From Deltaproteobacteria bacterium (GTDB lineage Bacteria; Desulfobacterota; Binatia; Binatales; Binataceae): DNA of 64,000 nt. A program made the translations under genes and the position numbers. Below are positions 1,751-5,426 of the stretch, piece after piece; position 1 is the stretch's first letter, and every line of letters begins with the position of its first letter. Location of the stretch: assembly GCA_021799495.1 (NCBI GenBank), contig JAJZAI010000010.1, positions 1 through 64,000 on the forward strand, written 5' to 3'. The notes beneath the pieces were generated by a model. That model worked only from the letters and a program-made list of their open reading frames with translations. It was not told where the DNA came from and did not search any database.

Positions 1751-2452
1751 TTGAACGAATCCGAAGCAGGCGGCGCCGCGGCGCCGGAGGGGATGCGCGC
1801 GTGGATCGCGCGGCGGATGGGCATCGCGCCGGAAGGGGCCTACTATGCCGCCGGCGCGGCTGCGGCCGGCGTGATCTTCGCCGCTTCGGGAGCGGAGTCG
1901 CTGGGAGTTCTGATCCTGATCGCCGCGTTCGCGATCGGGATGTTTTTCCGCGATCCGGAACGCACCACGGCCGCGCCCGCCGGCGCGATTCTGTCGGCGG
2001 CCGACGGCAAGGTCACGGATATCGGCGCGGGCGCGCCGGCCGAGCTCAAGCTCGAAGATGGGAGCCTGCGGATCTCGGTTTTCATGTCGCCGCTGGACGT
2101 GCACGTGAATCGCGCGCCGGTCGCGGGCGAAATTTCGGCCGTCAGGCATACGCCCGGCGAATTTCGCGCCGCTTACAGCGACGCGGCCAGCGAGCATAAC
2201 GAGCGCAATCTGATCGTAATCGCCGACGCCGCCGGACGGCGGCATGCGATAGTGCAGATGGCGGGTTATCTGGCGCGGCGAATCGTATGCCGGGTGCGGC
2301 CAGGCGCGAAGGTCGCGCGCGGCGAGCGCGTCGGCATAATCATGTTCGGCAGCCGCGTCGATCATTATCTGCCGGCGGGTTACCGGGCGACGGTCGCTGT
2401 CGGCGAGCGCGTGCGTGCGGGCGAAAGCGCGATTGGAGAACCGGATCGATGA
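1751..2452 (+). CDS. psd: Phosphatidylserine decarboxylase proenzyme
   Basis: Decarboxylates phosphatidylserine to phosphatidylethanolamine at the membrane. The 233-aa protein belongs to the short Psd type. Hydrophobic segments span about residues 25-65. The conserved FMSPLDVHVNRAP motif is near 115, and the autocleavage site GIIMFGSRVD is near 198, where the serine of GS becomes the pyruvoyl group. The track starts at TTG 1751; an in-frame ATG at 1793 is an alternative start. The stop overlaps the pssA start (ATGA), coupling two consecutive enzymes of phosphatidylethanolamine synthesis. Confidence 0.93.
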   Translation: MNESEAGGAAAPEGMRAWIARRMGIAPEGAYYAAGAAAAGVIFAASGAESLGVLILIAAFAIGMFFRDPERTTAAPAGAILSAADGKVTDIGAGAPAELKLEDGSLRISVFMSPLDVHVNRAPVAGEISAVRHTPGEFRAAYSDAASEHNERNLIVIADAAGRRHAIVQMAGYLARRIVCRVRPGAKVARGERVGIIMFGSRVDHYLPAGYRATVAVGERVRAGESAIGEPDR

Positions 2453-3348
2453 AAGGCGGCGAGGCGCGGAGCGATTCCGGCGGGCGTGAGCGGATGCGGC
2501 TTGCGCCGGCCGCGCTCAAAGCGCGTCGGGAAAAGATGGCCGAACCACTCAGGCGGGGGGTTTTCGTGGTGCCGGCGACGATTACGTCGCTGGGCCTGCT
2601 CGCCGGATTCTACTCGCTGATTTCGTCGATGAGCGCGCACTTCGAGCTGGCCGCGACCATGATCGTCGCGGCCTTCGTGTGCGACGGTCTCGACGGGCGA
2701 ATCGCCCGCCTGTCGCGCAGTTCGAGCCAGTTCGGAGTCGAGTACGACAGCCTGTCCGACGTCGTCGCCTTCGGCGTCGCGCCGGCGGGACTAGTCTATA
2801 GCTGGGCGATTCGTTCGCTGGGTTCGCTCGGAATCGTGATAAGCGGGCTGTTCGTGGTATGCGCGGCGCTGCGCCTCGCCCGGTTCAACGTGCAGACGGC
2901 GGTGACGGACAAGCGCCGCTTCACCGGATTGCCGGTGCCCGGCGCCGCGGCGCTGATCGCGGGCGCGGTGCTTGCCTACAGCTATTTCGAAATCGATTCG
3001 CCGCGCACGCTGTGCGTCGTGATGACGCCGGTCACGCTGGGGCTGGCGGCGCTGATGATCTCGCGCGTGCCGTATCCGAGTTTCAAAACCTTTACCCCGC
3101 ATCGCCGCGCCCAGGTCGAGCTGATGGCGGTGGTGCTGGTGATAGCGGCGATGCTGTTCGCGATGCCGCAATTCACGTTTTTCGCGCTTGCGCTCGCATA
3201 CGTTTCGTCCGGGCTGTTCCTGCTGGCGCGGGGCGAGCGAATCGCGAAATTGCCGGCCGCGCCGCCGCTGCCGGCGGCGGGCACGGCGCCGCAAGCCGCA
3301 GACCCAGCCGCGCCGCGACCGGGCGAAACCGCCGCGACCGAGCCTTGA
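2449..3348 (+). CDS. pssA: CDP-diacylglycerol--serine O-phosphatidyltransferase
   Basis: Makes phosphatidylserine from CDP-diacylglycerol and serine, supplying Psd. The start is ATG 2449, overlapping the psd stop by ATGA; the longer track ORF from 2287 is a read-through of the psd region. The 299-aa product shows the CDP-alcohol phosphatidyltransferase signature DG-x2-AR-x8-G-x3-D-x3-D (DGRIARLSRSSSQFGVEYD, then D) near residues 80-105, several membrane helices, and a Pro/Ala-rich tail. It resembles the Gram-positive/archaeal-type integral membrane PssA rather than the E. coli PLD-type enzyme. Confidence 0.93.
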   Translation: MKGGEARSDSGGRERMRLAPAALKARREKMAEPLRRGVFVVPATITSLGLLAGFYSLISSMSAHFELAATMIVAAFVCDGLDGRIARLSRSSSQFGVEYDSLSDVVAFGVAPAGLVYSWAIRSLGSLGIVISGLFVVCAALRLARFNVQTAVTDKRRFTGLPVPGAAALIAGAVLAYSYFEIDSPRTLCVVMTPVTLGLAALMISRVPYPSFKTFTPHRRAQVELMAVVLVIAAMLFAMPQFTFFALALAYVSSGLFLLARGERIAKLPAAPPLPAAGTAPQAADPAAPRPGETAATEP

Positions 3349-3374
3349 CGCGGGAATGTTCCGCTGGCTAGGAT
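3345..3374 (+). promoter_or_regulatory. Candidate sigma-70-type promoter for the leu leader
   Basis: TTGACG (3345-3350, overlapping the pssA stop codon) and TAGGAT (3369-3374) are separated by 18 bp. They match the consensus -35 at five of six and -10 at four of six positions. Transcription would begin near 3381, leaving almost no 5' leader before the leader-peptide ATG at 3385, so that peptide might be leaderless. This is a prediction from sequence only. Confidence 0.4.
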
Positions 3375-3384
3375 GCCAAGCGTA

Positions 3385-3468
3385 ATGACGTTGAACCTGC
3401 ATCTCGGACTGCTGCTTATTCTGGCCCTTAGCGGGGCCCACGCCGCGGGCGTCGAGGTGCAGGCCTGA
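3385..3468 (+). CDS. leuL: Leucine-rich leader peptide of the leuA attenuator
   Basis: A 27-codon ORF that the track missed. Leucine fills 8 of residues 3-15 (MTLNLHLGLLLILAL). It ends 23 bp before a strong intrinsic terminator that stands in front of leuA. This is the architecture of transcription attenuation by leucyl-tRNA supply, as established for enteric leu operons: stalling on Leu codons would favour read-through. GGCCCAC at 3435-3441 can pair with GTGGGCC at 3502-3508, inside the terminator, as a possible antiterminator (inference). The alternative is a small signal-peptide-like protein, but the context argues against it. Confidence 0.7.
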   Translation: MTLNLHLGLLLILALSGAHAAGVEVQA

Positions 3469-3491
3469 CCAAGGCTTGAAAAGCTGAGACC

Positions 3492-3539
3492 AACGCCCCG
3501 GGTGGGCCGAACAGGCGACCCGGGGCGTTTTCTTTTTTT
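3492..3539 (+). terminator. Intrinsic terminator/attenuator upstream of leuA
   Basis: AACGCCCCGGGT (3492-3503) and ACCCGGGGCGTT (3518-3529) form a perfect 12-bp stem with a 14-nt loop, followed by a T tract ending at 3539. It lies between the leucine-rich leader peptide and the leuA start, so it likely works as a regulated attenuator rather than only as the pssA terminator. Confidence 0.85.
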
Positions 3540-3598
3540 GGCCCGGCGCGGTCGCCGTTACGGTTCACGAGATGGGCTGAAGACGAGGGAGATGCGCA

Positions 3599-5164
3599 AT
3601 GTCCACGACCAGTTCCGATCACGCTGGCGCCGATTACGTAAGGATTTTCGACACCACGCTGCGCGACGGCGAACAATCGCCGGGCTGCACGATGAACGTC
3701 GAAGAGAAGGTCGCGATCGCGCGCCAGCTCGAGCGCCTGAACGTCGATATTATCGAGGCGGGGTTCGCCGCGTCGTCGCCGGGGGATTTCGAGTCGGTGC
3801 GCCGGATCGCCGAGGCGCTCGAGCGGCCGACCGTGTTGAGCCTCTCGCGCACGCGCGACGAAGACGTGGACGCGGCGCTGAAGGCGGTCGAGGGAGCGAA
3901 GCGGCCGGGCGTCCATATTTTCATCGCGACCTCGGATATCCATCTCAAGTACAAGCTGAACATGACGCGCGAGGACGTGCTCAACGCCGCGACCTGGGCG
4001 GTGACGCGCGCCAAACGGCATCTGGACCATATCGAATTTTCGTGCGAAGACGCCTCGCGCAGCGACTGGGACTACATGACGAAGATCTGCGAAGAGGTGA
4101 TTCGCGCGGGCGCGCGGATTATCAACCTGCCCGACACCACCGGCCACGCGATTCCGGAGGAATTCGGGCGGATGTTCGCCTACATGCGTGAGCATGTGGC
4201 CGGCGCGGACCAGGTGATCTGGAGCGCGCATTGCCATAACGATCTGGGGCTTGCGGTCGCGAACTCGCTGGCGGCGGTGCGCAACGGCGCCCGCCAGGTC
4301 GAATGCACGATCAACGGAATCGGCGAACGCGCCGGCAACACCTCGATGGAAGAGGTGGTGATGGCGGTCCGGACCCGCAAAGACCTGATGGAGGTGCGGA
4401 CCGGAATCGACACGCGCCAGATTTATCCGGCGTCGCGGCTGCTGTCGCAGATAATCGGCCAGCCGGTGCCGCCGAACAAGCCGATCGTCGGCGACAACGC
4501 GTTCGCGCACGAAGCCGGAATCCATCAGGACGGCGTGCTCAAGAACAAGCTGACCTACGAAATCATGAAGCCCGAGGATATCGGGATTCCGTCCAACAAG
4601 CTGGTGCTGGGCAAGCATTCGGGACGCCACGCCTTCGTCAACCGGCTGAAGGAGCTTGGAGTCGAGCCGGCGGCGATCGACGTGGAGAAGGCGTTCGCGG
4701 CGTTCAAGGCGCTGTGCGACAAGAAAAAGGTCGTGTACGACGACGACATTCTGGCGCTGGCGAACGAAGAGACGCGGCGCACGGCGGAACGGTTCGAACT
4801 GGTGGACGTGGCCGTCACCTCGTCGAGCCGCACGGAGCCGCGGGCCGAGGTCACGATGCGCGTGGCGGGCGAGGAGCGCAACGCCGCGGCGACCGGCGAC
4901 GGGATGGTGGACGCCTGCTACAAGGCGATTTACAAGATCGCGGGAATCACGCCGGCGCTGGAGCGCTACTCGGTCAAGGCGATTACCGGCGGCACGGACG
5001 CGCTGGGCGAAGTGTCGTGCCTGGTGCGCGAGGACGGAATGACCGTCGCCGGGCAGGGGGCGCATAGCGATATCGTGATGGCGAGCGCGCTGGCGCTGGT
5101 GAACGCGCTCAACCGGCTCAAGGCGCGGGAGGCGAGCGCGGCGCGTCCGGTCGAAGGACCGTAA
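3599..5164 (+). CDS. leuA: 2-isopropylmalate synthase
   Basis: Condenses acetyl-CoA with 2-oxoisovalerate, the committed step of leucine synthesis. The 521-aa protein has the HMGL-like TIM barrel (about residues 12-280) with the [12 protein letters not shown] signature and the metal-binding [12 protein letters not shown] motif. The C-terminal LeuA allosteric domain (about 370-510) should mediate leucine feedback inhibition. The ATG is preceded by GAGGGAGATG. Regulation probably acts both on the enzyme and through the leader/terminator just upstream. Confidence 0.97.
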
Positions 5165-5426
5165 AGCGCGCGGGACTTGCCGCGGCGCGGCGCTTGGGCT
5201 AAGTGCTGATACGTTGTAATTTTTGCGCGTTGATTCGGGACGTTGGATATTCAATCGTTTGCGAAACGGCGGCGTCTGGCGGCGCGCCCCGGGCGCATCG
5301 GCAATGGGCGCGCGGTAAGCCGGTTTCGCGCAAGCGGAGCGCCCGCAATCCGAAATCCCGAAAACACCGGCGAGGGAGAAGAGCGTTTCGTCCGCGCGCG
5401 TCGCGGTCAGGCGTCAGCGGCTGGTA

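Follow-up and report, generated by a model that had tools for sequence, protein, structure and literature searches.

The closest described system is the leucine attenuator of enteric bacteria (leuL-leuABCD; Rfam Leu_leader). It works by the same logic that we describe here for a locus of a soil bacterium of the uncultured group Binatia: a Leu-rich leader, a protector hairpin, an antiterminator and a terminator precede leuA. The Binatia leader differs from the enteric one in that it has no ribosome-binding site, that strand 2 of the alternative pairings lies inside its ORF, and that the last control codon is the rare CTT, whereas the Leu codon run of the enteric leader contains CTA. Searching with Rfam Leu_leader gave no match at the gathering score, either at the leader site in the window (the whole 64,000-nucleotide stretch of DNA that was analysed) or at 12 related loci, and the relaxed threshold gave only chance matches. 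Because no Rfam model covers the element, annotation misses the Binatia leucine leader.

An earlier note on this DNA considered ribosome attenuation outside the enteric bacteria worth documenting. Such attenuation is not itself new, as it is known in Actinobacteria and others (PMC1262725, PMC11857589). The actinobacterial LEU element also has a short ORF with a Leu codon run before leuA, but it forms a pseudoknot with the leuA Shine-Dalgarno sequence (PMC1262725), whereas the Binatia layout has a terminator/antiterminator pair, with the terminator and about 50 nt between the leader and the leuA start. Leaderless attenuator leader peptides have been reported for trpL of Sinorhizobium meliloti (PMC7298713), for ilvBNC of Corynebacterium glutamicum (PMC11857589) and, as relayed by a citing paper, for the mycobacterial polycysteine ORFs (Canestrari 2020, cited in PMC13236596). 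In these cases, the attenuator leader mRNA begins at or next to the start codon, as predicted for Binatia, and the operons and phyla are others than leuA in Binatia. Our literature search, covering few subscription papers, returned neither an attenuator from Binatia nor an amino-acid attenuator embedded in the gene upstream, which is weak evidence of absence.

The leuA locus and its leader peptide

The order at the locus is the end of pssA, a promoter-like pair, a Leu-rich ORF, a hairpin with a U-tract, and leuA. The coordinates given in the earlier note hold on re-reading the sequence.

2287 to 3348, + strand: pssA-type gene directly upstream of the leader, its 3' end inside the -35 box; named from its position and C-terminal motif
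3345 to 3374, + strand: candidate sigma-70-type promoter from a scan, with -35 box TTGACG (3345-3350), 18-nt spacer and -10 box TAGGAT (3369-3374)
3380 to 3385, + strand: predicted transcription start, ~7 nt after the -10 box, from promoter geometry
3385 to 3468, + strand: leader peptide ORF of 27 codons, from ATG at 3385 to TGA at 3466-3468
3599 to 5164, + strand: leuA, 2-isopropylmalate synthase (521 aa), with Shine-Dalgarno sequence GAGGGAG at 3585-3591

The leader peptide is MTLNLHLGLLLILALSGAHAAGVEVQA; the version quoted earlier comprised only the first 15 of its 27 aa. No Shine-Dalgarno sequence precedes it. Its Leu codons start at 3391, 3397, 3403, 3409, 3412, 3415, 3421 and 3427, which bears out the claim of eight in 13 positions, but they are of four types (TTG, CTG, CTC and CTT) and not of five as had been counted. 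An ATG ORF with 7 Leu in 12 codons arose in 0/5000 shuffles of the window region. Downstream of the attenuator, leuA is followed by leuB, and these genes make leucine, the amino acid that would be sensed. The leuA-leuB gap measures 262 nt (5165-5426) and is kept in the family, mostly at about 130-470 nt. No clear Shine-Dalgarno sequence stands directly before the leuB ATG, and a short GTCCGC....CGCGG(T/C)C-like motif recurs 20-40 nt upstream of leuB in several genomes.

We located leuA in 39/41 family genomes and 131/145 class genomes. The earlier reading depended on conservation of the leader ORF and its Leu codons, and comparison of the loci establishes both: the ORF is present at all 39 family leuA loci, about 200-300 nt upstream of leuA, and most of these loci share the peptide core GLLLSLALxxAHA. 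Across the class, 61/95 regions, drawn from families with a free-standing leader, contain an ORF that starts with ATG and has 6 or more Leu in 12 codons, against a background of 0.00026 per shuffled region and 0/95 on the reverse strand of the same regions. In 75/90 leaders the series of control codons closes with the rare CTT, a codon that makes up 26% of leader Leu codons vs 4% of those in leuA. Between families, little sequence is shared beyond the Leu codons and the pairing plan. The base after the last Leu codon (3427-3430 in the window) is A in 70/90 leaders, including most leaders of all families. Elsewhere, we found no second copy of the leader element in the window's genome, no Leu-rich leader before leuC of the same genome, and no convincing ILV-rich leader near ilvB in the part of each region covered in eight relatives. 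One class locus with the Binatia-type pssA-leader-leuA arrangement (CAMBFS010000144.1) is titled Klebsiella pneumoniae and is probably a mislabelled metagenome bin.

The position of the promoter is conserved as well. Scanning a 2.3-kb region, we obtained two promoter-like pairs vs 0.2 expected, all promoter calls being consensus matches only. TTGAC occurs 34-52 nt upstream of the leader ATG in 82/90 class loci and at 36-41 nt in 71/90, and where a promoter pair can be recognised in the family, 6-11 nt nearly always separate its -10 box from the ATG; in one exception (L028), an in-frame ATG further upstream restores the distance. Given this constant spacing between promoter and leader ATG, we predict that transcription starts ~7 nt after the -10 box and leaves a 5' UTR of 0-5 nt, so that the mRNA would be leaderless or nearly so. 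The leaderless peptide proposed earlier thus stands as a prediction from promoter geometry, and the same conserved distance makes a transcription start downstream of 3468 unlikely. The -35 box TTGACG (3345-3350) contains the pssA stop codon TGA (3346-3348).

Alternative pairings of the leader RNA

Four strands of the leader RNA can be arranged in two ways, the fourth being the 3' arm of the terminator.

3396 to 3406, + strand: strand 1, inside the Leu codons; in the MFE fold it pairs with 3453-3463 as the protector or pause hairpin of the untranslated leader
3435 to 3453, + strand: strand 2, encoding the AHA..GV peptide tail; antiterminator partner of strand 3, from folding and covariation
3488 to 3508, + strand: strand 3, pairing with strand 2 and covering 9/12 nt of the terminator 5' arm
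3492 to 3539, + strand: intrinsic terminator, with a 12-bp stem (3492-3503/3518-3529), a 14-nt loop (3504-3517) and a U-tract (3530-3539)

The terminator stem is perfect over its 12 bp, as had been claimed, and its U-tract reads TTCTTTTTTT. Our automated terminator scan made no call for the 3492-3529 hairpin because its loop limit was 8 nt. All 39 family loci have a similarly built terminator in the leader-leuA interval, and the fold of the leader RNA exceeds those of dinucleotide shuffles in stability by 4.1 sd. In f2, f6, f90 and f93 loci (e.g., L205, L139, L171), two tandem hairpins follow the leader rather than one; the first often lacks a U-tract, which suggests a his-type chain of alternative pairings.

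The antiterminator is built from four helices between strands 2 and 3 (3435-3441:3502-3508, 3443-3445:3499-3501, 3447-3450:3495-3498 and 3451-3453:3488-3490). In the outermost, proposed earlier as the antiterminator and subjected here to the folding check, GGCCCAC at 3435-3441 is exactly complementary to GTGGGCC at 3502-3508. The comparison across the family establishes this pairing: 245/273 cells of the outer helix are standard pairs in the 39 genomes, a count reached in 0/2000 random deals of the partner, and sliding the partner leaves only 84-147 cells paired. Double compensatory changes also support it, namely A-U to U-A (L010, L011), C-G to G-C (L012) and A-U to G-C (L036). The loci L036-L040 are diverged, and the outer helix is out of register or broken in three of them. 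An RNAalifold consensus of the gapped 39-row family alignment recovered the terminator and not the antiterminator, because a 3-nt indel and the diverged rows shift the register of strand 3; support for the antiterminator therefore comes from register-corrected pair counts and per-sequence folding. Other families preserve the pairing plan although the bases differ: their peptide tails encode CCGCCC-type strands whose partners are CACGGGCGG arms. Across families, strand 2 with its own strand 3 reached -30.7 vs -26.95 when permuted (sd 0.40), a difference of about nine sd that is inflated by relatedness within families and weakened by a wrong hairpin choice for several f2, f91, f96 and f98 rows.

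We folded the leader RNA in defined states, with an assumed ribosome footprint of 12 nt. Nascent RNA ending with strand 3 folded best as the long antiterminator 3435-3453:3488-3508 (-43 kcal/mol). With a ribosome at the last but one of the conserved Leu codons (L13 in the window), strand 2 was free, and 73% of the terminator arm was sequestered vs 51% with the upstream sequence shuffled; the stalled-state energy had a mean z of -3.6 and lay below -2 in 37/39 loci. The terminator was 99% formed when the ribosome stood at the stop codon. Masking of strand 2 by a ribosome at the stop codon would be only partial, since the estimated footprint leaves 3435-3447 uncovered. Once strand 4 is part of the fold, most family members favour the terminator over the antiterminator on thermodynamic grounds, even if the ribosome is stalled. 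For this reason, antitermination must, on these models, be kinetic, with the antiterminator forming first. Kinetic antitermination is usual for attenuators.

Taken as a whole, the sequence evidence, all of it comparative, makes it very probable that leuA is controlled by a ribosome-mediated transcription attenuator whose signal is charged tRNA-Leu. From its anatomy we infer a start site, stalling, termination and read-through as follows. Transcription would begin a few bases upstream of the leader ATG, and the leader would be translated from a leaderless or near-leaderless mRNA. When leucine is sufficient, the ribosome would move across strand 2 as far as the stop codon at 3466; strand 3 would then pair with strand 4 in the terminator, and RNA polymerase would stop at 3530-3539. 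When leucine is short, the ribosome would stall on the Leu codons at 3409-3429, covering strand 1 and leaving 3435-3453 free; strand 2 would then pair with strand 3 (3488-3508) ahead of the synthesis of strand 4, which would preclude the terminator and let leuA be transcribed.

The same parts could have a further role. Besides acting in cis, the terminated leader RNA or the peptide might act in trans, like rnTrpL/peTrpL of Sinorhizobium meliloti, which share the anatomy of a small leaderless mRNA ending in a terminator (PMC7298713). The core GLLLSLALxxAHA, conserved throughout the family, would be consistent with such a function, but its conserved non-Leu residues are explained by the RNA pairing of the same bases and the peptide tail changes between families, and we regard an additional trans role as improbable. 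Less probable again, and in our view very unlikely, is that the ORF is of minor importance and the terminator is controlled otherwise, by a leucine-binding RNA or a protein such as Lrp. Some Streptomyces leaders set a precedent, the codon changes at ilvB and leuA of S. coelicolor being atypical of classical attenuation (PMC1262725), and an undescribed element is conceivable given that no Rfam family matches. Control of this kind would hardly account for the retention of Leu at the control positions of peptides that otherwise vary in residues and codons, for the use of a rare Leu codon as the last control codon (CTT here and, in the nested version described below, TTA), or for families that differ greatly and have little but the Leu codons and the pairing plan in common. 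Scarcely credible is the idea that the hairpin merely terminates pssA and that the ORF encodes a small peptide, hydrophobic or secreted, with no connection to it: MTLNLHLGLLLILALSGAHA does resemble a signal peptide ending in AHA, its N-terminal 20 residues being signal-like with an A-x-A motif, but the promoter lies between pssA and the terminator, which places the terminator in the leuA mRNA leader, the AHA tail becomes CPPGAS- or IPPEGS-like outside the family while pairing with the terminator arm of the respective family is kept, and the seven residues left downstream of the putative cleavage site would scarcely amount to a protein.

Leucine codons at the pssA end of relatives

Attenuation by ribosome stalling at Leu codons may take a second form in some relatives. 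The 3' end of the window's pssA carries no control codons, whereas that of pssA appears to carry them in f5 (21 loci), f94 (9) and f99 (1), where a free-standing leader ORF was not found. In most of these, pssA ends about 25-30 nt before the terminator, which itself stands shortly before leuA. With pssA frames chosen by motif, TTA accounted for 86/212 Leu codons within the 22 codons around the Y..SGP motif near the pssA end vs 17/952 upstream in the same genes (Fisher p about 1e-53, a value that overstates the case because related genomes were treated as independent). Families with a free-standing leader showed no such excess (5/190 vs 44/1384).

Two further signs of constraint were found in single families. 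Among 47 conserved 4- or 6-fold degenerate columns in f5, one is synonymously frozen, an Arg CGG at the start of the motif CGGGAG, which is the complement of the CTCCCG arm of the terminator. In 9/9 f94 genomes, pssA contains a TTGCTT-17-TATACT pair that is followed after exactly 10 nt by an in-frame ATG; its -10 box is formed by the rare Ile codon ATA in all nine, and ATA makes up only 2/104 Ile codons elsewhere in these genes. The TTA excess, the frozen CGG and the internal promoter together argue that the tail of pssA itself, its last 40 codons, seems to serve as the leader in f5, f94 and f99 (L151-L202). The E. coli rph-pyrE attenuator (Andersen et al. 1992, listed in PMC10087573) reportedly uses the upstream gene as its translated leader and is thus a precedent for these relatives, not for the leader in the window. 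It senses UTP through transcription-translation coupling, not an amino acid through stalling at control codons.

The antiterminator of the nested form needs to be interpreted with caution. Swapping strands between f5 and f94 did not support it (own -23.2 vs -21.1 in f5; own -16.7 vs -19.0 in f94), and the z against shuffled strands was only -0.49. The energies leave it unproven, and in f94 it is entirely so; in its favour stand the frozen CGG codon and the visible complementarity.

In a LeuA tree, f94, f5 and f99 fell outside a 98%-supported clade containing all free-leader families and f92; this was a quick tree with SH-aLRT support only, and the basal splits individually had modest support. 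The simplest reading of this topology is that the nested form came first and the free-standing ORF later. Members of f92 (L132, L154, L155, L160, L170) belong to the free-leader clade yet have no free-standing leader; they keep an f5-like terminator, CTCCCGCTGGC, after pssA, and show no TTA codons and no clear internal promoter. With moderate confidence, we lean towards the view that the leucine leader began as the tail of pssA (phosphatidylserine synthase), with control codons, antiterminator strand and internal promoter nested in-frame as in f94, f5 and f99, and that the free-standing leaderless ORF is derived.

The locus extends classical leucine attenuation, in a predicted leaderless form, to the uncultured Binatia, a group without genetics, through a comparison deep enough to reveal compensatory base changes between the antiterminator strands. 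Judging from the relatives, a leader peptide seems able to originate as the codon-tuned tail of an upstream gene, to be replaced later by a separate small ORF. If this is true, the end of a gene for a membrane-lipid enzyme also acts as the leucine sensor of leuA, and the nested form, if shown to work, would be a new variant of attenuation.
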